From contig NC_081547.1 of assembly GCF_901000735.1 (NCBI RefSeq), positions 7,130,001 through 7,194,000 on the forward strand: 64,000 nt of DNA, written 5' to 3'. The translations under genes were made by a program, and so were the position numbers. Within the stretch, counting starts at the first letter, position 1, and every line of letters begins with the position of its first letter. Shown here in pieces: positions 13,832-52,537 of the stretch. The notes under the pieces were generated by a model that did not search any database, was not told where the DNA came from, and worked only from the letters and a program-made list of their open reading frames with translations. The DNA is from Corylus avellana (lineage: Eukaryota; Streptophyta; Magnoliopsida; Fagales; Betulaceae).

Positions 13832-14374
13832 ATGAGTAACGAAGCAGATGGAAAAAAAGTTGAAGAAACTCATACTCAACGTCAAGTTCCCCGGTTGAAT
13901 GAGAGGATCCTTTCATCTTTGTCAAGGAGATCAGTTGCTGCACATCCGTGGCACGATCTTGAGATTGGTACCTATAAACACGCCATGTTTAGTGTTCATA
14001 TAAACTTAAACTTAAACTTAAAGTACTGATTCTGTTGCAAATAATCTTGTCTGCAGGACCTGGAGCACCCAATATCTTCAACTGTGTATGTTTTGAACTC
14101 AACTTTATCATGCGAAACAGAATACTTATCTTTAGAGCTAAAATTGAAAGGAATATACACATTGAGCCCATGGTTTTCAACAACCTAATTTTTCTGCTGT
14201 ATTTGTACTAAATAGATAAAACAACCACATCTTCCCTCTTTTTTCGTCTTTTTCTTTTTTATGAGGAAAGAGAAATATAGTAGAAGATATGAACTTGTAC
14301 TTTTTTTTGTGGGGGACATACAATAGAATATATCAAGCACCATCTTACCAATCTTACCAAATATATATATATAT

Positions 14375-14406
<32 letters not shown>

Positions 14407-16309: not shown

Positions 16310-16716
16310 GCACAGTGCTGTATTCCATTGACTAGAATAAGTCCTTTTTTCAGTTATCTGAAGATGTTATGAGAAACTCCTTTTTTCACTTATCATAATT
16401 TGGATATTTTTATTCTTTTTTATTTGATGAACCTAGTTGGGGAGGAATGATATGGGAATATTTGCATGATATGCTTAAATTGGAATTGCAACTTATTCAG
16501 AATCCTAGATTCTTGTTAATAATTGTTTGAATTCACGGCTTTAACAACATGATCATGACAAGAATTTGATTTCTCCTGCCTGGATCTTCTTTCATATATT
16601 ACTAAATTGATTTTCGTGTGGAAATAATTTCGTAATAGAGGAAACTTAGGATAAAATTTTTCATATATAGTACTTTTCATTATTCAATCAAAATCGGTGC
16701 AGATAAACTCCTTACT
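16310..16716 (+). other. PPA-A 3' flank
   Basis: Downstream sequence of PPA-A, closely matched by 33268-33664 after PPA-B. No separate gene. It ends at the LINE target site. Confidence 0.8.
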
Positions 16717-16731
16717 GATATTAAAGTCTAC
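16717..16731. repeat. LINE target-site duplication, left copy
   Basis: GATATTAAAGTCTAC; matches 22721-22735 at 14 of 15 positions. Confidence 0.9.
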
Positions 16732-18300: not shown

Positions 18301-18546
18301 CACTGGAACCATTGCCCCTCTTAAAAAAGGTCCTGATAACTCTCACCATGAAGTGTTGTTATCTGATGAAGTGGACACAACATATCAAATGGACATCACT
18401 GTCACCCCCTCCAGCCAAGCCATTCCTCCTCATCTTCGCCCAATTTTCCAAGCAACCCGCAAAAACAAGCATGCGGTTTCTTCTTCACCTCCTACCCTCA
18501 GCAACTTCTTTTTTTCAGGGAACAATTGTTTGTCCCCAAAGAGCAT

Positions 18547-21500: not shown

Positions 21501-22550
21501 CTCTTTTTGACATCCATAGCGTTAGGGAAATCCTAAAAATCTCCATCAGCCCTTCTCCTTGTCCTTATTTTTTCTAGCCTCTTTCTTCATTTGGTAAATT
21601 TTCCATAAAATCGGCTTACAGATTGATAAGCAGCCCTAGAGTTTCCTCTTTTCCCTCCCCTCTTAGCTCTATCTCCTAGAAACTTCTGTGGAATCTCAAG
21701 CTGAATGCCAGACTCAAACTGTTTCTGTGGAAAATTGCCTGGGATATAATCCCCTCTAAGACCAGACTTAAATCTATTTTCCCAAATCCCTCTACAGTTT
21801 CCCTCTGCCTCCTTTGCAAATCAGAAGAAGACTCTCTTCCCCATTTGTTCTTCAGATGTTGGTTTGCTCGAATAGCCTGGAGAAATTCCTTCTGGCCTTT
21901 GGACTCTATGGCCTGGTCCTCTATGAGCCTCTCTAGTTGGATTAAGGGTATCATCAATCCCCATATTACGTTTGGCATTCCAAATTCTGAGGTTCACCTT
22001 TTCCAAATTTACGCTGCTGTCTTTTGTGATCTGTTATGGTTTAGTAGGAATAAAGCTCATCATGAAGGTGTCATTCCAGACATTGCCACTTTAGCTTCTT
22101 CCATCAAAAAGGCCGCTTTATCTCATGCTGCAGCTTGGAAATCCTCTTCTCCTAGAGGAATTGAAGTCTAGTCCCCTCCTCAGGAAGGTTATCACAAGAT
22201 CAACTTTGATACAGCCATTAAAGAGCATTTTTCAGCTCAAGCAGCCGTTTGCAGAGACCACAAAGGAAAAATTATCAAAGCTATCTCCCTGATCAGCCCT
22301 TCTTGCACTCCTAACTTTGGGGAAGCCCTGGCAGCTCTGTTGGCTGCCTCTTTAGCAATGTCTTTGAAGCTCAAAAATTTCGCCATCGAAGGAGACTCCC
22401 TCATTGTCATTACTGCTCTTCAACATCCATCAATCATTCAAGACTGGCACATAGAAAAGGTTATAGTAGATACATTAGCTCTTCTTCCTCCTTCTCCTAA
22501 GTGGGAGGCAAAGAAGATTAACAGAAGTGCTAACTTCTGAGCCCATCATG
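18547..22550 (+). pseudogene. LINE ORF2: endonuclease, reverse transcriptase, RNase H, broken
   Basis: Starts MKILSWNCRGL at 18547, the typical apurinic endonuclease opening. A frameshift near 18640-18720 moves to a second frame carrying IYGPPGKKDK, IGDLNFVLD, FTWCNNRQG and SNSDHHPI. A stop at about 19502 precedes the reverse transcriptase (19696-20946) with FRPISLCNIVYKIISK, FVPGRNIQDN, DMEKAFDKMEW, LRQGDLLSPFLF and the FADDL catalytic box. Past further stops come a zinc-knuckle-like SVSLCLLCKSEEDSLPHLFF region (about 21795-21855) and an RNase H remnant (KINFD, FGEALAAL, IEGDS; about 22195-22410). Most stops are TAG, where Trp or Gln is expected. Confidence 0.92.
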
Positions 22551-29622: not shown

Positions 29623-29891
29623 GGATCCCCTGAATTGTTTGAGGGTTTTTTTTGTTAATCTGGACCGTTGGATGAAATCCAATGGTCTAAATCTTGCCAT
29701 GTGTCCCATTGCCATCCCATATTATTAAATTAATTTTTTAATATTTTATTTTATATTTATTTTTTAAAATATATATAATTTTTTTTTAATGGGACACGTG
29801 GCGAGATTTAGATCATTGGATTTCATCCAACGGTCCAGATTTAAAAAAAAAAAAAACCCTACAGCAATTCCCCAGCTATTGCTGGGGATCC
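29623..29891. mobile_element. MITE inserted in the PPA-B promoter
   Basis: Ends GGATCCCC / GGGGATCC form terminal inverted repeats. The inner arms (AATCTGGACCGTTGGATG.. and its complement near 29820-29850) extend the palindrome to about 100 bp per arm. Candidate 9-bp duplication: GAGGGATCA (29614-29622) versus TAGGGGTCG (29892-29900); the empty PPA-A site reads GAGGGGTCA. Length and site suggest a Mutator-like MITE. No coding capacity. It lies about 65 bp upstream of the TATA box. Confidence 0.85.
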
Positions 29892-29956
29892 TAGGGGTCG
29901 GCTGACTACTCTCGCAAACAGACACGAGGCACGGAGGCAGTGCCTCTCGCTCTCAC

Positions 29957-29963
29957 TATAAAA
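29957..29963 (+). promoter_or_regulatory. Candidate TATA box of PPA-B
   Basis: TATAAAA in a CTCTCACTATAAAA context matching PPA-A. The conserved leader-exon donor (CCGAG|GTATGG) follows, intron from 30051. Confidence 0.5.
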
Positions 29964-30776
29964 TGCACGTTTAAGATCTCCGCCCCGTCCATATTCTCTC
30001 TCCGCCCTCTTCCAAATCATATTTCTAGCGCTGACCAACGACAATCCGAGGTATGGTTGCACTGTTTTCACTTTACCGTTGCAATAAAAGCTTTGGGTCT
30101 TTTTCTTAGTTCGCATATTTGTGCTTTACCCAGATCACCTTCATAAGGTTTATGTGCCTACTCTTATTCATATAATCATATTGGAATATTGTCATATCTT
30201 GCACTGGGAAGTGGGAATCGTGATTCATCTTAACTTCTTAAGGCTTAGTTTTTACACTCCTTTTTTTCTTATCGCATCATGCGTAAACATAAACATGGTG
30301 GATTGTTTTGTAGAAAAAAGTCAATGCCAATTGTTTCACGTTCTTAGATTTCTTGTGTACTGAATTCAATCACTTGGGTATTAAGGGTTCGATTGGATAT
30401 TGATGTTGATGTTGATTATGGCTGTGGCCCAGCATCAACTCGTCTGATATATTTGATGCATACGTTTTCGTTATCTCTCTCTTTTTATACGCTATCTTAT
30501 CTGGGTATTTCAGACCATGCCTTCCCTTACTCCTAGACATCTTTTCTTTGTGTGTGTGTTTATAAATTACGTAAGCATCTAATGGGTCTTCAACTCTCCA
30601 TCATTTGAGCAAGGCCTCATTGAGATGTGTATGTAGTTGGCTACTCAATATAAGACTACAAAATGAATTCTGGCATTTGCTATCTCTTGCAACTGATATA
30701 AGGATTTGAATTGACAAACAGAGTCACTTATTTTATAAAGATTGTCATGTGATACTTTTTATGTATCTTGTTGTAG

Positions 30777-31299
30777 ATGAGTAACGAAGCAGATGGAAAA
30801 GAAGTTCAAGAAACCCATACTCAACGTCAAGTTCCCCGGTTGAATGAGAGGATCCTTTCATCTCTGTCAAGGAGATCAGTTGCTGCACATCCGTGGCATG
30901 ATCTTGAGATTGGTACCTATAAACACGCCACATTTAGCGTTCATATAAAAACTTAAACTTAAACTTAAAATACTGATTCTGTTGCAAATAATCTTGTCTG
31001 CAGGACCTGGAGCACCCAATATCTTCAACTGTGTATGTTTTGAACTCAACTTTATCATGCGAAACAGAATACATATCTTTAGAGCTAAAATTGAAAGGAA
31101 TATACACATTGAGCCCTTGATTTTCAACAACCTAATTTTTCTGCAGTACTTGTACTACATAGATAAAACAACCACATCTTCCATCTTTTTTCATTTTTTT
31201 CCTTTTTTATGTGGAAAGAGGAATATAGTAGAAGATATGAACTTTGAACATTTTTTTGAGGGGACATACAATAGAATATATCAAGCACCATCTTACCAA

Positions 31300-31338
<39 letters not shown>

Positions 31339-33267
31339 GACGCCCAACTAGCATGCAAATTTTCTTTCTTTGCCGAGTCTCCAACTTTGTCCCAGGTTGC
31401 AAATACAACTTCTCCAATTAGAATTATCAAAGTAGACTCCTTGTCTCTATGATTTTTCTCATACAATCTTGCATTCCTTTTTATCACATTGTACAAACCA
31501 GTGGTGCAGGTTAATTTGTGGCCACCAACCCTAACCTTTTCCTGTCAAATTATTCTTAACTTTAATTGGACTCCATATGGCAGCGGCCAACTTTTTTCAG
31601 CCTCTCTCAAATTTCCAGCAGTTTTCTCTTTCCCAGCAACAATGTTCAACTTCCAAGTGGAATTATATTTCTTCAAGAAAAATTTCAGAAGTATCTGTTT
31701 GTTGAATTGCTTATTGGAATGGTGCAGGTGGTTGAGATTACAAAGGGAAGTAAGGTCAAATATGAACTTGACAAGCAAACAGGACTGATTAAGGTACGAA
31801 CCACAAGCACTCTGAAAATGAAGCTTTAAGTGCCAGTGCAAAGCATGTTCTTTCTGAAGAATACTTTAACTAGAAAAGGTTCACATTCTCTTCAAAATGT
31901 TTCAAGTCCAATCCAGTCTAATTACCCACAATCGTAGACAGTATACACCCTATGACACGCAACCACCATTTAATGGGGTGCGGTTCAGCTGGATGAGGAC
32001 TATAAAATTTTTGGAAGGTTTCTTGAGTTGTACTTTGGAAGAGTCTTGGTCCTTCCAATTTGTTACCTTGTGCTTTGCTTAGATTTTTACCATCATGATT
32101 GTTCTTACTGTCGGAATAAATTGCTCAGGTTGATCGGATTTTGTATTCATCAGTGGTCTACCCTCATAACTATGGTTTCATCCCTCGTACATTGTGTGAA
32201 GACAACGATCCACTTGATGTTTTAATTCTCATGCAGGTAATTTGTTATTGTTTAATATCCATTAATTCAGTAAAAATCTTGTTTTTCAATTCTTTTGTGT
32301 CCTGATAAACATAATGCCAAAGTGACATGTTTCTTGGATCATTCTCATATCATTATTTCTTTACTTACAACTTTGTTATTGAGGCTACAAAATTCCAATT
32401 CATTCTGCAATGTTTCGTACTACTAACTAGACTATTGACAGAGATCCCTTAATATAAGGGGTAAATTCCTATAATTTTAGACTGTTTGCATGTTTGAGCT
32501 TCATGTTAACAAGACCATTCATAAATCCTAAACTAAGCCAGTGACTTGAATAGGAGCCCGTCCTTACAGGTTGCTTTCTCCGAGCGAGGGCCATAGGACT
32601 TATGCCTATGATTGACCAGGTACTATTTTAAAGCACTAAAGCAAATAGAACATTTGTCACTTCTTTTTATTCGTTTGCTAATGACTACTTTGTACTTTCA
32701 ATTATAGGGAGAAAAAGATGATAAGATCATTGCAGTGTGCGCTGATGATCCAGAGTATAAGCACTACACTGACATCAAAGAGCTTGCTCCTCATCGTCTT
32801 TCTGAGATCCGCCGCTTCTTTGAAGAATGTATAGTTTTTAAACCTTTACATCTGAGATTTATTGCCCAAATTTTGATTCTTTAGTTTATTTGAGGTTTAT
32901 TTATAATTAGAGAGGTTTCTTGACATATTTTACAGACAAGAAGAATGAGAACAAAGAGGTTGCAGTCAACGACTTTTTACCTTCAACAAGTGCTGTTGAC
33001 GCCATCCAGTACTCGATGTAAGCCTATCTCAGACAACCATAATTTTTTTTAGCTCAGATCTAATTTTCGAGATCTCTAGGACACGAATTTTCAGTAAAGA
33101 ACTGGACATTAGTATCCTAAACAAATCATATAACCATGTCTGTCAGTTTTCTCCTCCACATAATATGATTGCTACAAAAGTTTTTCATGATTTCACCAAC
33201 TGAAGTTTGTATTTTAAATTGCAGGAACCTTTATGCTGAGTACATTCTGCACACCTTGAGGCGATAG
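30777..33267 (+). CDS. PPA: Soluble inorganic pyrophosphatase, copy B
   Basis: Second copy of the cytosolic PPi hydrolase. Exons 30777-30912, 31004-31032, 31728-31793, 32129-32236, 32554-32619, 32708-32828, 32936-33017 and 33225-33267 give 216 aa with the same phases as copy A. The DNDPLDV active-site signature and flanking motifs are intact. Seven residues differ from copy A: K9E, E11Q, K72Q, P118T, D175E, E197D and D204N. Introns are also highly similar, so the duplication is fairly recent. Its upstream region carries a MITE that copy A lacks. It ends 1.15 kb from the stop of convergently transcribed DCL1, the arrangement of PPA1 and DCL1 in Arabidopsis. Confidence 0.96.
31301..31336 (+). 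repeat. (GT)n microsatellite, PPA-B intron
   Basis: About 15 GT units; counterpart of 14361-14406 in copy A. Confidence 0.9.
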
Positions 33268-34414
33268 GCACAGAGCTGTATTCCATCGACTAGAATAAGT
33301 CCTTTTTTCAGTTACCTGAAGATGTTATGAGAAACTCCATTTTTTACTTATCATAATTTGGATATTTTTATTCTTTTTTATTTGATGAACCTAGTTGAGG
33401 AAAAAAGATATGGGAATATTTGCATGATATGCTTAAATTGGCATTGCAATTTATTCAGAATCCTAGATTCTTGTTAAGAATTGTTTGAATTCATGGCTTT
33501 AACAACATGATCATTACGAGAATTTCATCTCTCCTGCCTGTATCTTCTTTTATATATTACTAAATTTATTTTCGTGTGGAAATAATTTCGTAATAGAGGA
33601 AACTTAGCATAAAATTCTGCGTGGTACTTTTCATTATTCAATCACAATTGGTGCAGATAAATTCCTTACTGATATGGAATTTTACTACATTACTAGGGTA
33701 CTAAATTTTAAAGAGAAATGCTAGAGGTATTAAATTTTATAAATTTTTTTTACGAAGAGATTAATACTAAAATGATGGAAAGCTTATTTATTAAAAATGA
33801 TCAAAATAATTAATAAAGAGAAATATAATGTATTTTTTCAATTCCCCAAAAAGCCACTTTACTTCGGTCAAAAAGCCACGTGCTCTTGACCCACAAGGGA
33901 TAATGTTCGAAATGATTAAGAGCCCTTTAGTAATGTCCACCCGGACCACCCCCAAAGAAAGTGGTCATACCCATATTGGCCATATAAACATGTATTATTC
34001 TTTGATCTCCTAAAAGTTGATTTTAAAAATTCACATTAATTTTTGAGAGAATAAAAAGATAGTATATAGCATTACTCATCTATAAGAGGACATTAGTTGA
34101 GTCGGTATTGGTCAAATTTTGGACACCCACCACTAATTCCTTAACCCGGTAGAGTTGAATGTTCCAATCCCATTGCCGACTAATTCTCAATCCGGCCAAT
34201 CGGGCATTTAGCAATTTACTCACCCCTATGCACAAATAGAAACGAAGTAGACATTTTCTCCAGCTTCATAGAACTTGGTTAGAACTTCATAGGACTTAAT
34301 ATTGATTTAAATGAATACAGTGAACAAAAAGGCAGATATTGCCACTTGAAAACAGCCTGCCCCCACTCAAAAACCAATGATTAGGCATGATAATTTGAAC
34401 TGCAAAAATGGCCG
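33268..34414. other. Convergent 3' interval between PPA-B and DCL1
   Basis: Holds the PPA-B 3' flank, the intact counterpart of the LINE target site (CTTACTGATATGGAATTTTA at about 33667) and the duplicated tail to about 34000. From there to DCL1 it is unremarkable AT-rich sequence. Confidence 0.7.
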
Positions 34415-37400
34415 TTATGAGTATAATTTATTTAGAAGTTCCAAGAGAAGAGCAGCGGCAGAATCCTTGGCCTTTTTGACACTAGGCATAGGCTCTCCCA
34501 CACATTCATCTGTGGCTCCTTTGTCCGTAGTATTCACCCTTACAGCAAATGTAAACCGCTTCGCATGTGCAGGGCCACCCTCGCTCACACACCTGCAAAT
34601 GCAAATGCACAAAAAAAGTATTGAGCTCTCATCATCAGCAATCACGTTTACTAATGCATCTTCAAAATGGGCAAAAAGTAGAAAAACTATTCATCACTTC
34701 ATTACCGATAGGATGGCATAGGCCAATTTCTACGCAGGCAGATATCATTCAATGTTTGCCTAGTAAAAGTTTGGTTCCCATTCTTCTTTTTCTTCCCATT
34801 TTCATCACCTTTCTCCTTGGCTTCAGCTGTTTCCTTCTCTTTCAATGCAGCGAGTGCATTTCTAGCAGCTAGTTTCTGTGCCATCTTCTTTTGCGGATTC
34901 TGAGCAATTCCTATCTGGACGCCATCAATAAAGACTTCAACAGTAGCAAAATTGCCATTTCGACTTGCCTTGTATTCCAAGCCTTCCGCCTGTTGCTGAC
35001 ATCGTTCTTGCAGCTCCCGCACAGGATGCATTGGGAGTGTCTCTGGGGTAACCATTGGTTGCAAGAGAGGTTGAAACACCTAGCGACACAGATTGCGAAG
35101 ATGAGAGATGTCTTATATCAGTTCTTAACATCCCACTCCCGAAAGGAAAGGATCAAGAAAGAAGAAAGAAAGATAGAAAACTATGTCCCTTTACTGAAAC
35201 TAACCGTCCAAACAGCTGAAGTATCACGTTCGCTGTCAAGAAAAATGGCACCAGCAATGGATTCAACAATGTCACCAAGAACTTTTGGAGCTTTGCAGTC
35301 ACCCAAACCAAACGAGTTGAACCCGGGTTTTGACAATTCATCATGAACTTCTTTCACAAAGTCCCGAATCTGCAAACAGAAGCCAAAAACACCATGTCAT
35401 ACATATGCCATAAAAGCAAGTTGCAGCAAGGCCATGCAACCCCCTTTCAAGTATTAATGAATTTGAAGGGGAATGACAAAATAAAAAAACCTGCTTATCA
35501 AGGGCACTTGACCCATGCCGAAGGTGCAAGTGGAGACTGTGTTTGACAGCAACACGAGCAAAATTTTCATTGTTTACAGCAGCAGCTCGCAGGTCAGTCA
35601 AGCGCCCTGGGGGCAGATCAGTGTACGTGAAAAACAAATGCTTTGTTATGAGATGATCTAAGACAGCATCACCAACAAACTCCAGACGCTGATAGCAGGA
35701 TACTCCAGAAGATGGTCGTGAAGCATGAGTAATAGCTTCCACCAACAGGCCCCTGTCATTAAACTTGATGTTCAAAGCTCCTTCTAAGGCATCAAAGTTT
35801 ACACTTCTAAGTATGCTGTCCGGAACATTCGATGGCCTTGTTATGCACTCTATCTCATCCGCATCAAACTCTACCTGAATGCCAATCCATTTCATGAGAT
35901 GATTCGCAGCATGCTTCCCACCTTCAACATAATAAACTCCAATAAGTGCTTCAACAACATCTGCGAGCGTCTTGCTGGAGAGAACTCTATATGAACTCGA
36001 GTCACTCTCAAGCTCACCATCCTCCATTTCATCATTTTCATATCCATCACTGCACAGATCCATCCCATGTTCAGTCTCAGCACGTGACCCGTCCTGATCA
36101 AAAAAGGATGATTCTCCATCCTTGGTATCCTCATCAAAGACAGGCTGTACCCCAGGAGCAGCCCATCGAGATGGAGCAAAGCGATCTGCTTGGATATATG
36201 ATTGAAGTCCTTTACTCAAAGCATAGTGATATAACACCATGTTACTCACCATTTGTTGTCTCATCCTAGTAAGCTGACCCTCATGTTTCTGGGGGTATTT
36301 AAGAAAAAGAAATCGACTAACCACCCATTTCAGGTAAGCATCTCCCAGAAGCTCTGCCCGTTCATAACAGAAAGTCTCTTGGCATGAAGCAGCAGTCAAG
36401 GCTTCCAAGATCTGTGAAATAGGAAGCAGCTATCAGTTGAGAAGCAGTTGATAAGCATTTAAATTCAAATACTTGAGATCAGAAAATACCTTCGAAGCAG
36501 GGACAGTATAGTTTATTTTATCTTTGAGCTGAATTGCAAGCAGCATGCTTTCAACCCTCCTCATTACAGAGGGCAGTCTCTGGGCACCACGAACAACTGA
36601 TCCAGGAAGTGGGTGTACTAAGCACAGCTCAGCAGGAAGAAACACATAGTATGTTTTGTCAAGATTCTCTTCAGTTTCATCTTCAGGTGCTACACAGATA
36701 TAACAAGCTCCATAAGCGCATCAAGCAGCAAATATCTTTAGCAACCAAAGGGCAAAAAGGAGAGCATACCTTCCTTGTGTTCAAACCGAGGGGACAGGAG
36801 ATTCTTGCAATATGAGACACCCCGTCCTCTTATCAATGGTTGTTGCTTATAGATCAACTCAACTCCATACCTAGTTAAAGAAAACCCAATAGCCAAATGC
36901 ACCTTTTGTTGTGCAAGAAGAAAAGGAAAGCTTCTCCAATCTGTAAGGATTCATAAACTATTGTCAATGAGACATGTGCGGAACATATTAAAGCCCCCCA
37001 CACTTACAACCGACAGTAGTCAATTATATCCTTCACAGATTAAGGTTAGCTTTCCTCTTCTTCAGGCACAACAACTGAGGTGCAATGTGGCTAGTCGGTT
37101 GATAAATTATAATCAGGAAATTTCTGGACATTAGGGATGAGAGGGAAGGAAGGATTTCTTTCTTTCTTTTTTCAAACAAGATGGAAGGAACTAAAACTGG
37201 GCAGACAATTTGAGCTTTAAATTTGTATCTTACTTTTGCTTGTAGTAATCAGCATATGAGCTGTACTCCAGAGGACCAAGATATCCTTCTTTCCTCGGGA
37301 AAGAATTCTCCGCAGTCATATCATAGCGTACTGAGTCCACATAAAACCTCTTACCCGAGTGAACAGCTGTGACAATTCTGCCTACCAAATCTTCCGCACT

Positions 37401-39897
37401 CATACAAGTATCAGCCAACATCAGTTTACCTTTGGTCAAATCCACATGCTCTTGCAATTCCATACCATCCCGATTAGGAACCAGTCCAGAAGCTTTCACA
37501 ACATCAAACTGTGCCACGGCTCCTCTGATTCCATAGGTGGGATGAGATTTTTGTCCAAAAGCCATCCCATTACGCAATTTCCCAAACCCATACTCCCTTC
37601 TGTCTCCACCCAGTGTCCTCTCATTTGTGCCAAGATAGACATCTGGTCGAGCTTTCTGAAGGGGATTGTTCCATGCATCTGTATTAATAATATTTTCAAT
37701 CAGATCCCAGTCAATTTCTCTCATAGGATCTAAAGATTTATCGCCAACCACGGGGACAAACAAATATGCCTTTGTAGGATCCCAAGGAGTAGTGGAAGGT
37801 TCAACATCCACGTCCAGTACAATGCTCATCAATCTTACATGAAAACTCTTAAGGGAGGCCAACTGCAAACAATTCAAAGTAGGAATAGCATCAGTAGCGG
37901 ACAAATAAAAAGTCAAGACAGGTCTAAACAAACAAACTCAAACAGTAATTAATTGATCAACCTGACTTTCAGTGATATCCATTAACCCCCTGAAGACAAG
38001 AGATGCCTTTGTACTCATGGTTCGAGCGACAAATAGATCCATCGACATCGATAACACCTAATGCCAGTAAATGGGGTTAGTGAACCTAAAATTGATTTAC
38101 CATAAAAAATGACAGCTGAAAGTAAAATACCTCTGCATCCAGCTCATTGCCAAAAAGTAATGCAAAATCTGAAACTTGAGTCAAGAACGGATCTTTTGAA
38201 GAGCCAATATTTACACATTTAACAGCATACACATAAAGATGAAGCACTTCTGAGTCATTGCAAACATCTCTTCCAGATAAAATCCATTCTCCCTGAAAAG
38301 CCAGAGAACGTTACGCAAGTATGCATTTAAAAGACAACAATTACAGAAAAAGAAACCTCAAATATAGTTGTTGGTATAATTAAATACATCATATGTGGAA
38401 TAAGATGTATCCAACACAAGCACAATTTCCTTAGATGTATTGAACCACACAGAGTACAATACAAAGCAGTACTTGCAACAACTTCAAGTTAAAGCACCAC
38501 CGCAGTTTCACCAAATACATTATAAATGGCTTTTAATTCATATAATCACTTCACTTCCTGTGTACCTAGGTTGTGCTTTGCGCTTTTATGGATATTTCTA
38601 TTACTTATTAAAAAAAAAAAATTCATATAATCACTTCATTCCTCCGAAGACACATTGTGCATATAATTTAGTTGCTAAATCTATTGTGCCTAATGATCTT
38701 GATTCTCAACAATTTTTCCTCTCTGGGAAAAGATAATTTTTTTTCTAGATCTTCTATTTAATTAAAAGGGAATCAACTACATATAACCTTTTGAAGTTGA
38801 AAAATACTTTGCTAATGACAGTTAAACACTATATATTTAGAACTTGGAATTTGAAACTAAATAGATCAATTAGCCATGCATCAAAGACATTCTCGTTTGT
38901 AGTACAAAATTAAGGCTATTATAACAAGTTTCAAAATGCTACATGGTTTGTCTTTCTGCCCCTTGGTAACCAGCAACTTATAATCATAACAATTTATGTG
39001 TTACGTTAAATGACATGAAATCAAGCTTTGACGAAATACATATATTTCCAAATTATGTATATGTCACTCTCTTAGTTATCACATACTTTTTCCTTATCTT
39101 CCTTTCTTCATATTTTTTATAAATATGGTGTTCTTATTATAAAGCCCAGTTTCACCTAGTAACTAGGCAATGTGGGACTTAACACTGGCTATCTTTATAA
39201 ACCACCCACTCTATGTAGGCTTCTTCTCATCTTCCCAATATGGGACTGGGGTGTTACAAACTCCCCCTCTTAAATTCCTGACGTCCTTGTCAGGGCCATG
39301 TCAAGCAGTGCTCCAGTACCACATGACCTAGCGTTACTAGGTGGCTCTAATACCACTTGTAACGACCAAGGAAAAAAGCGCTAACCACATCTGCGCTATT
39401 ACTCCAAAATGACTAGTTAATTTGGAGCTTTCCTATAATTTATTATAAAGCTCAGTTTCACCTAGTAACTAGGCAATGTGGGACTTAGCACTAACTATCT
39501 TTATAAATCACCCACTCTTTGTAGGCTTCTTCTCATCTTCCTAAAATGGAACTGGGGTGTTACACTTATCAAAGCAAAAAAGGAATATTTGGATATATGT
39601 CTCCTAAACCGAAGTATTAACATATAGCAAATATAGGTTTAGATCACGTTGTGTTCATCTTTTCTTGCTTCATTTTTTTTTTTTTTTTTTGGTCAACACC
39701 CTACACACTAAAAGGGCAATTCAGGGATAAATTCCAGTATTCTTATATATATATATATAATTGAGATATCATTAAAAGCGTAAGGCGCCTCCAAGTGCAC
39801 AGGAAGTATACAAGAGAAAACACATAGTTCATTTTTTTTTTTTTTTCATAAACACCCTACACATTAAAAGTGCAATTCAGGGATAAATTCCAGTATT

Positions 39898-39932
<35 letters not shown>

Positions 39933-40253
39933 GAGATATCATTAAAAGCGTAAGGCGCCCCCAAGTGCTTAGGAAGTATACAAGAGAAAACACATAGAAC
40001 AAGAAAAAAGAACAAGAAAACCATGAAAATTTAGAACCAAATCCATTAAGTAGCTGTCACGTTGCTGTTAACATGCAAAATTCTAAGCCCAAACTAAAGG
40101 AGGCTGCAATACCAACTGTATATGCCAAACGTAAATGACCTTCTGCCAGTTTGAGGGCCAACAATTAGTGGGGGTCTGTTTTTTTCACAATTAGTGGGGG
40201 TTATCGCTTTTAATAAGATGGGATTATTACTTAACATAAAAAAATAATAATAA

Positions 40254-40302
<49 letters not shown>

Positions 40303-43300
40303 CTTAGGTGTTTTCAGTAGCAAGTCTTCTACAATAAAAACTGTCGGGTCACAAACATTTTCATTTAAACTTTTCTTTACAACAAAAACAAAATATTTAC
40401 ACCGCCATGTGACATGCATTATTAAACAAACCTTAAGAATATCAGCCACGCCTTCAGGATAGAACTCTCTATGCCTAGCAGTCCCAGGGAGTGGATCTCC
40501 TTCATCATTCTGGTCAACTTTTTCTCTTTCTTCCCCACTTCCCTTGTCTGGCAAGAGCATGTCCGTAAATGCTCCCATCTCATGGAGCTTCTTGCAAGCA
40601 GCCAAACAAACAGCCTGCACGATAGAGAGATAAATAAGCCATCTTTCTTAAAAGAGAAATGCTTGGCTTCATTAAAAAGTCCATACTTTGGCCATTTTAA
40701 TACTAGGTGGCATGGCCCATTTTAAAATTAATAGATTTTAAACAATAAATTAATAGATTTATGGAAAATGAGTCATGCTACCTAAGATTAAAATGGCCAA
40801 AAGATGGACTTTTTATTAATGAAGCCAAGCATTTCTCTTATTAAAATGACTCACAAAAAGCTAAAATGATCATGACAAACTGATAGCATGCCTGCTGTGC
40901 AAGGCGCATTGAACTACAGATGGGACCCTCAAGTTTCTCAAATGGTGCATTACAAGGCAGTTGAAGCTTGCATGAATATTCAGTGGGACCCCCTGACTTT
41001 TCATGCCTCTCCATGATAAACTCAGGACGAAGTATTGAATACCTGGATAACAGATACAAGGAAATTGAGCAAAAAATCGATCTTACTAGCAAATCTAAAT
41101 GTCTTGGTAAACATGTAGCATGTAAATATCAATCTTAGAGCACAAGCAAAACACCTGTCACTGGGTAGTTGAGAGCAGTAGAAATGGATGAGGCCAACAG
41201 CAGAATTTAAGCTTACAACCGCACCAGTTGACTCCACCTGGTACACAGTACCCGGAGAGGTATCCGCTGAAATTAATCTTGAAACATCTTTAAGATGACT
41301 AAGGTCAGTTCTCTCTATTGCTTCTTTCCGCAAGGTCTCCTCACTATTCCTGGCATTCCTTAAGAATGCTTCATGTGACAAATTCCCCCTAGATAATACA
41401 AAAATTTACACACTTTCAAATCCACTAACATTTGAAAGATCATAAACAGATACCACAATTAGAATTAAGACCAACACTGAACCTAACCCAACACAAGTAG
41501 AAAGTGAACAAGATTACAAAGAGAAAACACAGATTTGGATTTTTTTTAAACCCGCTATTTTTGTTTTTTTTTGCTGGACTATGCTAACATTGAAAAGATT
41601 TTTTTATTAAAAAAAAACACACAAGTACCTCTCAACCATCAGGAGGTAATCAGACCCAGGTTTTCTAGCCCGGCCCCTAGACTGAATGTATGCCAAGACA
41701 GTTTTTGCAAGGTCAAAGCGAATAACAACATTGCATTGCCGAATATCAAGTCCTTCCTCAGCAACACTAGTGGCAACTAACAAGGTCACCTAGAAAACAA
41801 GTGCAAGAATGGATGAGATGCTTGAATATCCAATCATGAAAGAATTCAATTTTTATGCAAAATGAGTCAGCAAGCATGGGATTCAAAACATACACGTCCA
41901 TCCCGGAATTTGGCAATTGTGTCCTGCATTTGGCATGTCCGCATTTCATGACTATTGTTGTGACCTATCAAGCTTGCACATTTAATAAAACTTAGAGAGG
42001 GAAGCTCTGTAAAAACCTGCATGCTTGGCAGAAGATAACAATATACTCTTGAGGAACTTGAGAAACTGAATTAACAAACAAGAACACAAAACCATCTATT
42101 AACATCTCAACCTTAGGAAGAACTAAAGCAGACACAACTCGCTCAACAAAAATGATTGCACGAAAATCTTCTGTGTTCTGATAGTTGAGAAGTATTTTAA
42201 TCAGTGACTGCACTTTTGGCGTCACTTTTCCATCAGCAACAGCAGCTCCTATTATCACATCCACATGCTCCCCACCAGATACAACTGCAAGAAGAACAGG
42301 TTAGAAGAAATATCAGTATATTTACCATTGTAAACATCTGACAAATCAGAAATTCATGCAACCAAGAAGAGAAATGAAACAGCCTGACACATATGGTTGA
42401 TGGTGGTCAGTCACTTGGATGACCCGGCATACATTTAAGGCTCACCTAGATGAGCTTAACATGTCCTTAAATGCTCTCCATGCATAAAATAGGACCCCAA
42501 ATATATTTCAATCACAAATTACTTCAACAATTTAACTACAATAATCCAGCCATCCAGGATTTAATATAACCAAATTCATTAGTTTTGCCATCTTCTGATA
42601 TGCCCTATACCAAAATTTGTGAAATGATTATATCATTTCTCTTTTTCTCTTGGGTGGCGGGATTTGTATAACTCAACATATGTGGGGATCAGTATGAGCT
42701 GCACAACATCTAGAATGTCTATTCTATGTAATCACCAAGAGTCAACAACCATACTCACCAGGATTTGTATAACTCAACATATGTGGGGATCAGTATGAGC
42801 TGCACAACATCTAGAATGTCTATTCTACGTAATCACCAAGAGTCAACAACCATACTCACCATGACTGTCAGGAAGCTCTCCCTCCTCAATCTCATCAGCT
42901 TCAGTCCCATCCTGAGCCACATCACTTTCTGTGTCTGCAACTTTTGTATCCTTGTCAGAAGCAGCCCCCTCAGATAATTGACATTGTATGAGAGATACGA
43001 TTTTGTTCAGGTAGGATTCTTGAAACTTGACATCAAGTTGGTAATTTGCCCTCTCATCATTTTGTAAAGCAGTCAAAAAAGATTGTGCAACCTGTGAAAG
43101 AATGGATATGAAACAGTTGAGCAGGGAAAATGCAAGTAAACAATAGAATTGGAACAAATTGGTACCTTGTAAGCGCACCACTGACCCAGTTCACCTAGTG
43201 CATAATTTATAGCCCTCAGCTTTTGAATTAAATTAGCAGCCCCATCACTTTCTGTCCTTTCAGAAACACCATAGACTTGGCGCAGCTCCTCCTTGGCCCC

Positions 43301-46300
43301 GGCATCTCTTGCTCCCATGAACTGCCACTTACTTCTTCTAGAGCTAGATTTTGCAGCTTCTTCAACTTCAGCTTCCATTTGCTTTATCTGCTCATGAAGT
43401 GACCATAAGCTGGCTGCTTTGTCATACTCCACCACAACTTCTGAGGGCATTGGTACGTGTTTCTCCAGCTCTTTACGGTCTTTAATGGTACAAACTATCG
43501 AATCTAGTTTACTTTCCAGATTACGAATCTTTATCGCACAATCAACTTGGCTGGAAACGCCTGAGTAGAACATAATCATGAGCAACATGTTGTGGCAGAC
43601 TTACGCAATAAAAAGGAAATTGTGACTACCTACAAAACTTTATTGATAAGATGCTTCTTCTAAGATAATTAACAGCTTGAAAAGAGAAAAATAGTAGCAC
43701 AAGAGAACCTTATTGTCACAATTACCCTTTAAGTTAACAGGAGAAGCAGTCATTCCAAATACAATTGGTCTCTTATCCTTGGGTGTCGTGTGATAGAACT
43801 CAGACATCACTAAAGAATATGGATGTTTCTTCACTGCATGATGACACTCATCTAGAATAAGGAGATTTATCGCTTCCATTTTTATTATGCTGTGCCTTAG
43901 AATGTTCAACAGAATTTGAGCTGTCATCACTAAAACCTGCAGTGAGAGGAAACAATTGGGTGAATAGGTGTATAAGCAGGCAACACCCAGGTGACAAGAC
44001 CAATAATAATTTTCTTGATGAATAACAAGACCAATAATAATGACAGAATCAATCACAATCACAGAACCTTCAGTTTTGGATGCAGTAACCTTTCAATGAG
44101 GAACCAAAATGCCTTGGACATTTTATCCAAATTCCATAAGAGCCCATCATAACAAGAACAGAGACAGATTTGAGACATCAATCACAGCAATGACAAGATC
44201 ATAGTGAACTTTTAATATGAAAACATGTGAATACGTATTGGCATGCTAACAAAGCCAATTTTGCAGTAAAACCACAAATGCTCAGTTAGAGGTGAAGGAC
44301 AGCAGATGAAACGAACTAAATTTGAACCAATTCATGAATGAATTAAATTTGAGTTAAGTCAATTAATTTAGATGAAATGATTCAGAAATCAAATTCAATA
44401 CACTTCGCTTAAGATGAAGAATTAGAATTAGAAACGAATTGGGTTGATATAAATTTTTTTTTTTTTTTTTTTTTTTGTGAATATGCACGATTTCAAATAG
44501 AAATCAAATTTAGTATTCGGGTGGGGGGAAACATAAGATGAATTGCATTGAATATGTTGAGCATACACATGTGAGTATAGAAAAGCTACAAAAATATCAT
44601 AGGTGTAGTGGTTAATATAATATAATTGTGTTAAAACATAGGTTTAAGCTTTTGGGTTAAGTAGTGTTCCAACATATTATATTATGGTCTCACTAAAAAT
44701 TCTCCAAAAGCATCAATCTCCCTAACAAGTGGTACCAGAGCTAGTAACGGAGTGCAATATGGTGAATGATAACAGTGCCTTTCGCACTTTGAGCGGTGAC
44801 GAAGGTCCACGGCATGGATAAAGCCCACATAACCTGCACAAGTAATCCTATGCCTATGGACAATCTATAAGATTAATAAAGCTTTTGTTCAAGGGGAAGG
44901 TAGCAATGTGGTGATAGACTTATAGTCTTATACATGAAAGAGAGATTATTGACCATACACGTATGAGAATAGAAAGATTAAGACATATATTAGAAAGATG
45001 TCATATGTGAGAGTGATTAATATAATATAATTGGACCTAAAACCATAAGTTTAAGCTTTTGGGTTAAGTAGTGCTCAAATATGTTGTATAATGGTCTTAC
45101 TAGAACACTCTCCATGGTGTTAATCTCCCTAACAAGGATATCAAAGACGATGGTTGCAGCATTGTGGATGATTGTAAGATAGTGATTCCTTTGGCAGTTG
45201 AAGCAAAGACGGTGCACATGTATATGGTGGGTGATAGTGGTTCCTTTCGCAATTGAAGCGGAATGGTGCACATGCATGAATTGTGGGTCCCATTCGCAAT
45301 TGAAGCAAGGACAAAAGATGCATGTCATGGATAAAACCCACATAGCCCACACAAGTCATCCTAGAGATGGCCCATAAGATTGATAAAGCTTCCATTCGAA
45401 AGGGAATATAACGATGTGTCCATGCCATGGAGAGAGTAACGATGTGATGATAGACTCACAAATAAGAGGGCGATTGTTGAGTATACACGTACAAGTGTAG
45501 AAAAGTTAATTTCCTCATAAGAAAGATATACAAGTGTGAATGACTAAAATAATTAGGCCCAAACCAAGGATTAAGCTTTTGAGTAGAGTGGTATTCCAAC
45601 ATGTTTTATTATGATCTCACTAGAGCACTCCCCTAGGTTTGGATCACTTTAACATAATAAAATTCCCCTTACTATCGCCACTACATGTTTCTAACCAAGT
45701 TTCTAAAAATCAAACACAAGTTGAAGAAAAGTGTAATCATTCATACTTATGTTCTTACAAAAATTGAGAGAGAGAGAGAGTGTAAAAGGGAACATGTGTT
45801 AGTGTTGGTATGTAGTATGTGGGGATGGAAAAATAATTTTTTTTACAAGTCATGGGGATGGAAAAAGATAAACAGAGATATTTTTGGTATTTGGTTAAAA
45901 GATTCTTACATGACAAGAAATGAATTAGGAATCGAATCAAATTTGAAATGATTTGGTCCATTGATAGTCAATTCACATGAATTCTAATTCAATTCATCAG
46001 GCAAGCAGAGAAATCTAAACATATGAATCGAATTTGACTTTAATTCATTTTGGTTCCAACACACAACTTGAATTCAATTCAATTCATATTGGTACCAAAG
46101 ACGTGAATTGGGCTAAATGGATTCCAATACAATTCATTTTGGCCAATTTATGGGTTTCCAAGCATGGTATTAGCATTTTTTTTTTAAAGCAATTCAATCT
46201 CATTAGAAAGCATAGAGGGGCGCAACCCTGCATTGTAGCATGATCACCTCATAATTCAAAATTATGCTAAAACATAGAACACAATTTGTTGAGACTGCAA

Positions 46301-49300
46301 AGCATACAGCATAAGAAAGATTCAACTGTTTCCACAACTTATTAATTCCCAAGAATTTTTCACAACAAAAATATTTAGGAGCTTATTAATTCCATGAATT
46401 TACAAATAAAATATTTATTTTTTGACATGTCCCCACAAGGAGGGAGGAGGGAGATTCGAACTAGTGACCTCCGCTTCATTAAGCGTGGTCTCAGCCGATT
46501 GAGCTACCTCTTGGGGACACAAATAAAATATTTAGGAGCTTATTAATTCCATGAATTTACAAATAAAATATTAAGGAGCTTATTAATTCCATGAATTTAC
46601 AAATAAATATTTAGGAGCTATGTCAGCAACAAATACAGTTTCCCACCTTTAGGCTTGGAAAAATCTAAGGCCATACTTCATCTATGATCTCTAAAGCTTA
46701 TCAATTCCTACGTAACATGGATTTCCAAGAAACTAGTAAACAAAATTCAACTTTAAACTCCTAAAATGAGACAGTCAGCAAGAGCTCAAGACCTCTGCTA
46801 GTTGATGTTGACAAAAACATATTAAATTCAAACCTACCACAATGATCCATTTTAAAGCGCTCCCTAAAGGAGACCATAAGGTAAGAGGAGAAGAATGAGC
46901 AATGCCAAACGAAGAACAATATCTTAATACTTCTGATCATTTCTTTCAAATATATCATGAATGAGATGGCATGAATTGTCCAACCCCTTGAAGCTTACCC
47001 TTATCTCCCTGACAAAGACCCCAAAGGCTATTGTGGCATGATGAATTATATTTCCATTAAGTATCATTACATGCCTCCAAAAGGAAATGCATCTACATCT
47101 ACAATGACCAAGCAAAAGTCTAATGCATGAGCATATGATCAATTGCCTGTTCTTTTTTTTTTTTTTTTTTTTTTTTTGGTTCAACATACAGTTATTCAAG
47201 CTAAGAGCTTTACAAAACATTATAGATTGTAACTTCTCATTGGTATTCATCCCACGGTACAACACTGGATATGCCAAATCCCTTACTCTAGGGGAAACTT
47301 TGGCCATACAAATCAATCAGCAGAGACCGGAACATGGGAAACTTAAACTTTAAACAGGTGATAAAAAGAAACTAGAAGTGAATAAAGCCATCACTCTCCA
47401 AAGACCATCATATATTACATAAAGAATAATCAGAGAGAAAACACCACTCAACACTTGGAGAAGAGAACCAGGTTCACTATCTGAAGGTAACATTAGTCTC
47501 GGAAGAATTTCTAGCCACAAAATAGGGAAGCAATTTAGAGAACCAAAGATCACTACTATCCCCCCTCCCTCTCTGGACCTTGAGAGCCTAAAGAGATGAA
47601 GGACTGCTTCCCTTGGAAAGACTGCATCCACCACAGACCCTCCCATAACCAATGAGTTCTCCTGTATTACATTTCCGTATCACATTTATCCTTACTTTAA
47701 TTACTTTTTTAATTACTTCTACTTGCTTTTCCACCAAAACAATGCCAGCTCAAATTTAGCAAAATATATTTTTTGATGTCTTTTTTAAAGTGTTCTTGTG
47801 TTAGATCAAAAATCATATAATTAGCTGCCACATTATTATTATGAGTATTATTATCATTGTAATTGTTGATAAAGTAATAATTCAATAAAAAAATATTTTT
47901 TAAAAAAAAAAAAAGGCACAACTCTAGAATATGGGAATATACAAGAGAATTGCCAAAAAAAGAATATCTGCCAGATAATTATCACAGACATTTTCAACAT
48001 TAAACTTGAGTGAAATTTTTATGATGGTGAGTTGGTGATGATTAGGTTATCATGTTTGTATACTGAAAATTGCTGGTAGTGGAACGTGAGGAGAGATGAA
48101 CAATATTTGAAAGAAAAAAAAAAAACAATGGGAACTATCCTTCCAGGAATAACCTTATTGTAACGGCAGAAAACAAGGCAGCAAGACATCGTATTGAACC
48201 TACAACAGGTACTGTTGAAAAATATAACAGTTTTATGGTTGACACAAGGCATACCAGATTACAAACAACTCTCTAATCCCCCCGGGGAAAAACAAATAAA
48301 TTTACTTTTAACAGGACCCCAATCATTTACTCTTAATTTGGGCTGTTGATTTCACAATCTTGATCCAATCCTATTTCTAAGAGCATCACAATTAATCTCA
48401 TTTGCATGGCAATAATTTTATGCAGGCATATAAAGTAATTTTGTCTTAAGAGATTCTCTTGAAAGGCAAACCCTGGTTGTACAACAGAAACACTGAAAAA
48501 AAAGGTATCTAAATTAGAAGACAGAAAAAAAGATAGCTAAACTAAATCTTTACTAAAAACCCTTTTTATTTTTGCATATGCTATGCACACCTAGACTGCT
48601 AGTATTCTACAATAGCACAACAATGCAATTTACACTGTGTCTTAAAGGTATTGTGATGAAAGAAATTTTCCTAACATTAAATTAATCTATAGGCATTTAA
48701 AGAATAGTTTTTTAATCAACAACTTTCATCTTTAGTGTGCATACTTTGCTAGTTTTCTAAAATAAGGGAACTATAACCTTTCCCCTGTATCTGGCAAAGA
48801 TTGCTTTTGCTCAATCATTACCACTAGAAAACAGCAGTTCCAAAAGATTTATTTTAGTAAATAGGAGCCTGCAAATCACCTTTCAATAATTGAAGCTAAA
48901 AACTAATTCGAACATAAGGAAGTTTAAAATAATATATGTGAATCATATCTCACCAAAATCAGAAACCTCACCTGTTTTGCTTCGAACTCACGCTGCCATC
49001 TTCGAGCATCCCAGAAATCTTGACCCATTTCACCACAATAATGGCCCACTTGGAAACCAGTCCGCTCGCGAATAACTTCTGCTTGCTGAAACAAAGCATA
49101 ACCAATGACATTAACTCATTTCGTAATGGATAGACACCATCATGGTTTAGTTGCAAAACAGAACATCATCAGTCTCCAAAATAGACTACCTGATAGACTA
49201 GCGGCACTTTAGGAACTAAAAACACGGCAAGCATTTTCATATTCAGCCTTTGTAAATCATTGGAAACACTTTTCATGAGAAGAACAGCAATGAGTGTCTT

Positions 49301-50236
49301 CCCAGCCCCAGTTTCAAGAAAGGCTATTGTGTTTTTCTTCTTTGCCTGTTCAAGAACATCCAATTGATACTGTCTAGCATGTTCTTGGGGAATTTTTTCT
49401 TTTGGTTCCTCCTCGGATTTCCTCTCCGCCCTCGCATCAGATTCCTGGATTTTTTCATTGGCCGCCTTGTTGGCGTCTTTGTTACGGTCGGCTTCCCAAG
49501 CACCTAAGCGGAAAACCATGTCACCAGAACCCGACCTATCCCTCTCCCAATAACCCTTTGCCTCTCTGTCCCTCCATTCCCTATCTCTACCATCCCTCCT
49601 ATTACTACTGTAATGTTCTCTTCTCCTACCATTATCCCTATCCCTCCTATCAATCTCATCCCAATCTCGACCCCTCTTCCTACTCAAACATCTTTCCCAA
49701 TCCTTGGGGTGATTCTGCACTCTGCTCGAGTAACACCTCTCCTTCTTGAAGTTACCAATCCTAGCCCTTTTACTAGACCTCTCTTCCCCATCCGCACTAC
49801 CCCGCTTCTCAACCTTTTGCATTCCATTTTCCCTTGAGGAATTATCCCCCACCAGCGGCACCACTTTCTTTTCGGTAATCTCTTTGTGGATGCCATCGGA
49901 CGGCGGAAATGAGCCCTCAGATGGGTCGCCCTGGAACCACGTATCCCCGCCATTGACGGCGGAATTAGAATCAAGGAGCTGAGGTAGAGGGACGCCGCCA
50001 CCGTTCTTGATGCTCTCAAGTATGTGATCGATTCCACCGAAGAAATCGCTGACAAGGCCGTCCTGATTTCCAACGTTGTCGACAGAGTTGGGAACAGGAC
50101 AAGTGTCGAAATCCACGAGGTCGCAGGGTATGTCCTCGCAGGCATCAAGCCAGTAAGACGGCCTCACATCGTCCGCCGATGACGCGGGTGTCAGCTCCCC
50201 CCCAACGCTTCCTGGAACCCTAGCCTCATTCTCCAT
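34415..50236 (-). CDS. DCL1: Endoribonuclease Dicer homolog 1 (DICER-LIKE 1)
   Basis: Nuclear Dicer that cuts pri-/pre-miRNAs with HYL1 and SERRATE. Twenty coding exons: 49190-50236, 48972-49085, 43726-43936, 43166-43560, 42860-43091, 42112-42284, 41894-42016, 41629-41789, 41155-41388, 40892-41042, 40432-40614, 38131-38292, 37962-38057, 37234-37862, 36770-36870, 36490-36689, 35491-36411, 35205-35369, 34706-35079 and 34415-34592. These give 1949 aa (Arabidopsis about 1909). Domains: Arg/Asp/Ser-rich N-terminus; helicase with GAGKT (310-314) and DECH (416-419); helicase C; Dicer dimerisation near 820-910; PAZ about 1150-1350; RNase IIIa ERAELLGDA (1421-1429); RNase IIIb QRLEFVGDA (1645-1653); two C-terminal dsRNA-binding domains. 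Intron 2 is 5 kb and transposon-filled; intron 10 is GC-AG. Regulation: a miR162 site and an intron-14 hairpin are visible. Confidence 0.97.
36898..37084 (-). ncRNA. Candidate intronic miRNA precursor (miR838-like) in DCL1 intron 14
   Basis: On the DCL1 strand, the 5' arm (37084 to 37028) and 3' arm (36950 to 36898) are complementary over about 50 positions, with small bulges and a 77-nt loop. Both arms share TGCACCT, TTGTTGTGC, GGAAAGCT and AATCTGT blocks when one is reverse-complemented. The 3' arm segment 36910-36930 ends CUUCUUGCACA. It matches about 17 of 21 positions of Arabidopsis miR838 as I remember it, and miR838 comes from the same intron of Arabidopsis DCL1. Not supported by expression data here. 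Confidence 0.7.
38048..38142 (-). promoter_or_regulatory. miR162 target site in DCL1 mRNA, split by intron 12
   Basis: Exon 12 ends CTGGATGCAGAG (38131-38142) and exon 13 starts GTGTTATCGA (38048-38057) on the minus strand. Joined in mRNA they form the known DCL1 miR162 site with the usual bulged middle. The 73-bp intron separates the halves, so only spliced mRNA would be cut. Confidence 0.9.
39133..39564 (-). mobile_element. TRIM-type retroelement in DCL1 intron 11
   Basis: On the minus strand: an LTR of about 207 bp (39564 to 39358, TGTAACACC..CGTTACA), then a primer-binding-like TGGTATTAGAGC, a short internal part of about 100 bp, a polypurine tract AAGAGGGGGAG, and a second, truncated LTR (39258 to about 39133). 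No coding capacity: the plan of a terminal-repeat retrotransposon in miniature. Confidence 0.85.
39680..39997. repeat. Tandem duplication (about 155-bp units), DCL1 intron 11
   Basis: Two copies (about 39690-39827 and 39848-39997) share ACACCCTACACA, CAATTCAGGGATAAATTCC, a (TA)n tract, ATTGAGATATCATTAAAAGC, GTAAGGCGCC and AAGTATACAAGAGAAAACAC. The second has a longer TA tract. Confidence 0.9.
40267..40293. repeat. (TA)n microsatellite, DCL1 intron 11
   Basis: About 13 TA units next to a short TG run. Confidence 0.9.
40652..40839. mobile_element. MITE in DCL1 intron 10
   Basis: AAGAGAAATGCTTGGCTTCA at the left pairs with TGAAGCCAAGCATTTCTCTT at the right. Arms extend to about 65 bp each (through GTCCAT.CTTTTGGCCATTTTAAT), leaving a loop of about 55 bp. 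The 188-bp element fills most of the 277-bp GC-AG intron. Confidence 0.85.
42660..42861 (-). repeat. 101-bp tandem duplication spanning DCL1 exon-5 donor
   Basis: Units 42660-42760 and 42761-42861 differ at one base (ATTCTATGTA versus ATTCTACGTA). The right unit includes the real exon-5 donor GTGAGT (42854-42859); the left carries an exact copy at 42753-42758 inside intron 5. Confidence 0.95.
44555..45654 (+). mobile_element. Tandem TRIM array (three LTRs) in DCL1 intron 2
   Basis: Three related LTR-like copies: 44555-44727 (TGTTGAGCATACACATG..CCCTAACA), 44947-45134 (TATTGACCATACACG..CCCTAACA) and 45475-45654 (TGTTGAGTATACACG..TTTAACA). Each has TTTAAGCTTTTGGGTTA-like and ATCTCACTAGA-like blocks. 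The first is followed by a primer-binding-like TGGTACCAGAGC (44730-44741), and purine-rich AATAAGAGGGCGAT precedes the third. Internal regions of about 220 and 340 bp encode nothing. Confidence 0.8.
46337..46620. repeat. 43-bp minisatellite interrupted by SINE
   Basis: Units TTAGGAGCTTATTAATTCC then ATGAATTTACAAATAAAATA recur at about 46375, 46531 and 46572. A diverged unit precedes at 46337 and a partial one follows at about 46610. Confidence 0.88.
46418..46520 (-). mobile_element. tRNA-derived SINE in DCL1 intron 2
   Basis: On the minus strand it starts GTGTCCCCAAGAGG, has a box A (TAGCTCAATCGG) and box B (AGTTCGAATCT), and ends GGGGACATGTC plus a short A tail. A perfect 14-bp target duplication AAATAAAATATTTA flanks it (46404-46417, 46521-46534). 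It inserted into a 43-bp minisatellite. Confidence 0.92.
46921..47650 (-). other. Unidentified insertion-like block in DCL1 intron 2
   Basis: A 25-base poly-T run (47152-47178) with open minus-strand stretches on both sides (to 47652 and to 46924). The look suggests a poly-A-bearing retrosequence on the minus strand, but no protein family is recognised. Confidence 0.35.
47651..48971 (-). other. First part of DCL1 intron 2
   Basis: Intron sequence after exon 2 (donor GTGAGG at 48966-48971). AT-rich; no element recognised. Confidence 0.6.
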
Positions 50237-52030: not shown

Positions 52031-52537
52031 TGTAACACTTCGGTCATGAAACTGGGTTTTATAATGGATTATAGGCAATGTGGGACTAGAGAAAAGTACT
52101 AGCCACATCCATGTCATTACTCTAAAAGGACTAGTCAATTTAGAATTTTCTTAAAATTTATTATAAAGCTCAGTTTCACCTTGTAACTAAACAATGTGGG
52201 ACTTAGCACCCATGATTATCTTTATAAACCATGCACTTTATGTGGTCCTTTTCCTATCTTCCCAATATGGGACCGAGGTGTTACAAACTCCTCCTCTTAA
52301 ATTTTCTTGACGTCCTCGTCATACAATGTTTCTGTACCACATGACTTGGCATTACTAGGTAGCTCTGATATCATCTGTAACACCCCACCCTAAATGATAT
52401 GTTATTGTCCGCTTTGGGTCAAGCCCTCACGGTTTTAATATTGGGTTTACCACAAAAATACCTCATGTCATTTAGAGAGAGCATATTCCATATATAAAAA
52501 TCATCTTTTTCACACACATGCAATGTGGGATGTCACA
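52031..52537 (-). mobile_element. Composite TRIM-like LTR pair
   Basis: An LTR of 255 bp (52031-52285, TGTAACACTTCGG..GAGGTGTTACA) is related to the intron-11 TRIM. It is followed by the complement of a polypurine tract (AACTCCTCCTCTT), a 90-bp interior, the complement of a primer site (GCTCTGATATCATC), then a different LTR-like unit 52376-52537 (TGTAACACCCCACCC..GGGATGTCACA). Confidence 0.75.

Follow-up and report, generated by a model that had tools for sequence, protein, structure and literature searches.

The locus analysed here raises the question of whether the long hairpin in intron 14 of DCL1 is a relative of Arabidopsis MIR838 or a local structure of another kind, and whether it may let DCL1 control its own transcript. 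That DCL1 could measure itself via one of its own introns is a long-standing, little-tested idea that genome comparison makes testable. In the available portions of the respective papers, miR838 is called non-conserved (PMC4833791) or seemingly Arabidopsis-specific (the Brachypodium paper, PMC4053937). The window, i.e. the whole stretch of DNA that was analysed, comprises 64 kb and contains the following parts of DCL1:

34415..50236, minus strand: DCL1 coding part, 20 exons, 19 introns, 1949 aa
38048..38142, minus strand: miR162 target site in the spliced sequence, split over the exon 12/13 junction (38142-38131 and 38057-38048)
37234..37862, minus strand: DCL1 exon 14, ending in ...YYKQ(K)
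37230..37232, minus strand: in-frame TAA, codon 1305, if intron 14 is retained
36871..37233, minus strand: DCL1 intron 14, 363 nt, GT-AG, phase 2
36770..36870, minus strand: DCL1 exon 15, starting with (K)YGVEL

The exon search was guided by an Arabidopsis DCL1 sequence. Among the best 120 of 610 matches listed, the predicted protein shows 95.7% identity to DCL1 of Alnus glutinosa over 1949 positions (2 gap positions), and 87.5% and 84.6% identity to the Carya and Quercus proteins; Alnus is placed by taxonomy in the Betulaceae, Fagales and fabids. The window thus probably stems from a member of the Betulaceae or a close relative. Residues 1051-1262 of Arabidopsis DCL1 (7eld_A) match exon 14. 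The gene lies between a B3-domain gene and an inorganic pyrophosphatase gene; the order in Arabidopsis is NGA3, DCL1, PPA1. As a separate observation, a direct 3.7-kb duplication of 94% identity (12982-16721 and 29950-33675) overlaps the adjoining pyrophosphatase gene with its second copy. The miR162 site was placed with the miR162 sequence. Arabidopsis DCL1 likewise carries it at exon 12/13, according to the available part of PMC4429486, and intron numbering is therefore in register with Arabidopsis. With the numbering anchored by this site, the hairpin is found at the MIR838 location, in DCL1 intron 14 and on the host strand. The assignment of the stretch to the intron between coding exons 14 and 15, made in the initial annotation, holds in the 20-exon model. 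The first in-frame codon of a retained intron 14 is a stop (residue 1305) directly after exon 14; judged from the reading frame, retention would give a non-functional message, as expected of a DCL1 intronic self-control hairpin.

The hairpin in DCL1 intron 14 is real. The intron (36871-37233, minus strand) folds with an energy of -118.8 kcal/mol at z -7.93, and 0/100 shuffles were as good; a repeat of the test gave z -7.17, again with 0/100 shuffles. The hairpin proper spans 218 nt with 83 pairs in the minimum-energy fold of the DCL1 strand and takes up most of the intron, its stem beginning 133 nt from the 5' splice site and 12 nt from the 3' splice site. The long stem reported earlier is thus present, although not as nearly perfect arms over about 50 positions some 77 nt apart: the gap-free complementary arms measure 27 nt at 89% and lie 115 nt apart, and internal loops interrupt the longer stem, whose middle part is paired too. 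Three features describe it:

36883..37100, minus strand: MIR838-like hairpin, matching Rfam RF03974 positions 1-170 at full length, base 12 nt from the 3' splice site
36910..36930, minus strand: miR838-like 21-mer on the 3' arm, 17/21 to ath-miR838 and 18/21 to aly-miR838-3p
37048..37068, minus strand: would-be star strand from the pairing table, duplex ends deduced

The 21-mer at 36930..36910 reads CUUUCCUUUUCUUCUUGCACA and has the 3' end CUUCUUGCACA, in agreement with the terminal 11 nt and the roughly 17 of 21 identities to miR838 given for it earlier. In the predicted duplex (36930..36910 / 37068..37048) the strands are 21/21 nt long with 2-nt 3' overhangs, one 2x2 mismatch and no bulge. 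In the ungapped register the 21-mer starts with C, not U; the structural alignment has one base absent near its 5' end, which moves the homologous miR838 5' end to 36929 (U). The predicted lower cut sits above the internal loop at 37085-37087, at a distance of 16 nt along the 5' arm and 12 nt along the 3' arm. Base-to-loop processing by DCL1 uses a spacing of roughly 15-17 nt, and the modelled spacing would be roughly similar. The few duplex mismatches, the lack of a large bulge and a hairpin length of 218 nt, below 300 nt, agree with the structural criteria for plant miRNA loci reportedly laid down by Meyers 2008 and by Axtell and Meyers 2018.

A strong stem does not by itself set intron 14 apart. 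The initial annotation had seen no comparable stem in any other intron, which proved incorrect: when the 19 DCL1 introns were fold-tested, the two longest as tiles, intron 10 beat intron 14 with z -12.3, and its repeat gave z -14.0 with 0/200 shuffles. A scan of the window folded 1596 stretches of 240 nt, with z computed for the 60 of lowest energy. Among those 60, values of -10 or below occur at four places, two of them in DCL1 introns (14 and 10) and the others at about 29.6-29.8 kb and at 57.8-58.2 kb. Strong hairpins alone are not rare in the window, and the standout feature of intron 14 is its likeness to MIR838.

The three other strong hairpins are MITE-like, and one of them sits in DCL1 itself, which favours an independent origin, i.e. 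a MITE that inserted in intron 14 and resembles MIR838 by chance. The intron 10 hairpin is formed by the following element:

40654..40837, no strand assigned: MITE-like element with fully complementary termini (12/12) and a 9-bp flanking repeat carrying 1 mismatch

From the length of its target-site duplication it is presumably Mutator-like, and no MIR838 match was found in it. In the gene model, its host intron (40615-40891, minus strand) starts with GC, hence a GC-AG intron. The hairpin at 29632-29870 also has 12/12 termini, with a flanking repeat of just 3 bp, and attains the top sub-threshold Rfam scores of the window. The strong hairpin at 57841-58250 overlaps a tandem duplication (57898-58084 / 58062-58250, 88%) and is a weaker MITE candidate, with 11/12 termini and an 8-bp flanking repeat carrying one mismatch. 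The search that gave candidates at these three places covered up to 40 nt from the ends of the intron 14 stem and found no terminal inverted repeats there that are accompanied by a target-site duplication. A MITE hairpin such as that of intron 10 shares with intron 14 a long stem in a DCL1 intron but differs in its terminal repeats, its flanking duplication and its lack of a MIR838 match. By and large, the background hairpins of this genome differ in kind from the intron 14 stem.

Likeness to MIR838 was examined with the Rfam threshold lifted, and the scores are accordingly sub-cut-off. Against 4227 Rfam families, the best match of intron 14 is RF03974 (MIR838), covering positions 1-170 of 170 with 40.1 bits and E 2.2e-6, far below the gathering score of 190 bits; at Rfam's curated thresholds the whole window gave no match. 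Other scores for the intron were 23.2 bits for MIR838 on the opposite strand, 27.9 for MIR169_8 and 26.0 for MIR869. A search of the 64 kb with E up to 10 placed MIR838 matches solely at the intron 14 hairpin (E 3.6e-4). In other families it is outscored by the MITE-like hairpin at 29.7 kb (MIR8562 with 69.6 bits and MIR7533 with 51.1, both below their own cut-offs). Plain hairpins can score well in Rfam models. Because unrelated families score high at the 29.7-kb hairpin, similarity was tested against shuffles that preserve the hairpin, with base pairs permuted one by one or as blocks of 2, 3 or 5 (20,000 each, 80,000 in total). Local alignment to the MIR838 consensus gave identities in 32/44 columns for the 5' arm and 31/40 for the 3' arm, with a summed arm score of 75. 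None of the 80,000 shuffles reached this sum, the best scoring 73, which points to homology of both arms beyond generic hairpin likeness; the single-arm scores were reached by 5 shuffles for the 5' arm and 3 for the 3' arm. Against the consensus, four further hairpin stretches in the window scored 24-46. The opposite strand of the intron 14 hairpin scores 76 compared to 75, as a near-palindrome must, and the arm test therefore bears on homology and not on strand.

When every 21-mer of the 64 kb was scored on both strands, 36930..36910 came out as the single best match to ath-miR838 and aly-miR838-3p. The reference sequences were those given in the available part of PMC9495863, and the MIR838 Rfam consensus contains ath-miR838 exactly. 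The runners-up (16 for ath, 17 for aly) fall on the other strand of the same hairpin and, for ath, also at 34688 on the minus strand (16). As CU-rich repeats near 62.7 kb reach 15-16 against miR838, the 21-mer alone makes a weak case and the arms carry the homology. A chance likeness of a CU-rich 21-mer was considered and set aside, given its best rank in 64 kb on both strands together with the similarity of both arms. Inverted duplication of DCL1 or another window gene was likewise rejected as source of the stem: at E 0.01, blastn of the intron against the window returned its own two arms and one 18-nt simple match (59416-59433), and no such duplication. Relatives of intron 14 were sought among viral contigs, with none found, and among genome contigs, where 19 pattern matches yielded 0 confirmed cases.

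This bears directly on the MITE origin. The two arms resemble MIR838 in matching order and in the same intron, at a level that the shuffles did not attain, and save for the simple match the window holds no other copy of the hairpin at blastn E 0.01. Together with the missing terminal repeats and flanking duplication, the MIR838 homology disfavours a MITE origin, which we regard as highly improbable. On sequence grounds the structure is best named MIR838-like and homologous; it is not filed as a member of RF03974, as its score stays short of the cut-off.

If the stem was inherited, the changes in its pairs are informative. In the structure-fitted Rfam alignment, the 63 consensus pairs of MIR838 divide in intron 14 into 32 unchanged, 3 changed on one side and still paired, 14 changed on both sides and still paired, 9 unpaired and 5 gapped. 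Sliding the partner by 1-3 columns lowers the two-sided changes to 0-3. Weight is put on the lower stem because sequence identity anchors it, whereas the full alignment is fitted to structure, and the eight two-sided changes elsewhere weigh less. The 40 lower pairs comprise 27 unchanged, 1 one-sided, 6 two-sided still paired and 6 lost; redealing the 3' letters within consensus letters gave at least 6 two-sided changes in 2/20,000 trials (mean 1.2). With two sequences, and short of a covariation study, the paired changes may be called suggestive. They also weigh on whether the hairpin is a relic, the decaying descendant of a working MIR838 hairpin, with no effect in the window plant. Such decay fits the loss of 9/58 comparable pairs, an upper stem that is little alike and a mature strand that is 3-4 changes off. 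Still, 17/26 changed pairs continue to pair overall and 7/13 in the lower stem, and the stem ranks among the four strongest in 64 kb, so that we consider a relic improbable, if less so than a MITE.

The window hairpin and Arabidopsis MIR838 (RF03974) share the DCL1 host, intron 14, the host strand, end-to-end alignment and a miR838 stretch on the 3' arm, the latter being predicted in the window; they differ in that the loop and upper stem are longer here (69 nt compared to 9 positions) and diverged, and in that the window hairpin scores below the Rfam cut-off. By taxonomy, Arabidopsis belongs to the malvids, Alnus and Medicago to the fabids. If the window species and Arabidopsis share a homologous stem, it originated at or before their common ancestor, and we infer shared descent of the intron 14 hairpin and MIR838 from at least the fabid-malvid ancestor. 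The initial annotation had left a choice between an origin older than the Brassicaceae and two origins in the same intron. Sequence comparison supports the former, and the latter appears unlikely, since some 40 nt of either arm are similar in sequence. The identification of a MIR838-like hairpin in DCL1 intron 14 is itself supported by the full-length match, the shuffles, the two-sided changes, the intron number and the shared miR162 site at exon 12/13.

The claim of novelty was overstated, and the stem in intron 14 is not wholly new: according to the available text of PMC4833791, a similar fold with a miR838-like stretch, together with intron 14 retention, was published for Medicago truncatula in 2016. 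The same text describes retention in 9-22% of DCL1 mRNA, three matching 21-nt RNAs of which none is the miR838 homologue, and 5' RACE that returned no fragment cut in intron 14. Retention would end the reading frame at once in the window gene, as reported for Medicago. The likeness of the two hairpins follows the published description of the Medicago one. The homologous, pair-conserving stem of a Fagales DCL1 and the Medicago report suggest an old rosid feature. Against a universal one stand Salvia, whose DCL1 has no miRNA-like stem in 19 introns as far as the accessible part of PMC4429486 goes, and grape, where no intron prediction matches miR838 in the accessible part of PMC2717091. An intronic DCL1 miRNA with proposed feedback is also known in Physcomitrium (miR1047, PpDCL1 intron 7); it differs in sequence and intron and is described as of independent origin (PMC4429486 and PMC10721683, available parts).

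The cut-versus-splice control proposed for Arabidopsis MIR838 may be proposed for the window hairpin as well, and DCL1 cutting in competition with splicing, on an inherited MIR838-orthologous stem, is probably the best explanation of the locus. DCL1 would bind the intron 14 stem in its own unspliced pre-mRNA and cut near the base of the 21-nt duplex (36930-36910 / 37068-37048), and the cut transcript, which could not be spliced, would be lost. A transcript neither cut nor spliced would meet the stop directly after exon 14, within the PAZ region. With abundant DCL1, cutting would outpace splicing and DCL1 output would drop; with little DCL1, splicing would win. Direct support extends to the intron, the stem, the sequence homology, the paired changes and the immediate stop; beyond the existence and homology of the stem, we infer every step from the Arabidopsis and Medicago papers. 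Points against this explanation are the low Rfam score, the 6/40 lost lower pairs, the asymmetric lower stem (16 nt vs 12 nt), the 5' C of the 21-mer and the Medicago results, where 5' RACE gave no cut fragment and the miR838 homologue was not among the 21-nt RNAs.

The main rival is an old splicing element, the relic and the unrelated transposon being lesser ones. The stem would hide the 3' end of the intron and slow its removal, leading to retained, stop-containing transcripts with no need for DCL1 cutting, and what preserves the pyrimidine-rich miR838-like strand would be its role as a splicing tract and not as a small RNA. The closeness of the stem base to the 3' splice site (12 nt) fits this, as does the miR838-like strand being the most pyrimidine-rich stretch nearby. 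In the last 130 nt, YTNAY motifs, which resemble branch sites, are confined to a position 4 nt from the end and to the range 73-117 nt from it, within the stem, although such a motif is too short to be telling. However, a pyrimidine tract alone leaves the matching 5' arm with its two-sided changes unexplained, and Arabidopsis miR838 is a sequenced small RNA. In Medicago, retention was measured and cut fragments were not found (PMC4833791, available text), in favour of the splicing element. On balance we judge it unlikely, albeit the least so of the three.

Returning to cutting in competition with splicing, a bolder version would take the stem as the selected thing: a rosid-wide sensor of DCL1 in cis, more than 100 million years old and kept by paired changes, with the released small RNAs, which along with their register drift between lineages, as by-products. 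We offer this tentatively, as a possibility that falls short of an expectation. If true, MIR838 has been misfiled as a young, Brassicaceae-only miRNA. The homologous stem directs attention to the structure, not just to the small RNA. The possible self-control switch of DCL1 is in any case suggested to be old and not peculiar to the cabbage family.

Two further repeat features were noted in the window. Intron 11 of DCL1 contains repeats at 38989-39591 with relatives at 52089-52321 (79-84%) and fold z down to -5.4, and a LINE-like element occupies 17258-22540 on the plus strand, with a reverse transcriptase domain (RVT_1) at 19678-20946.
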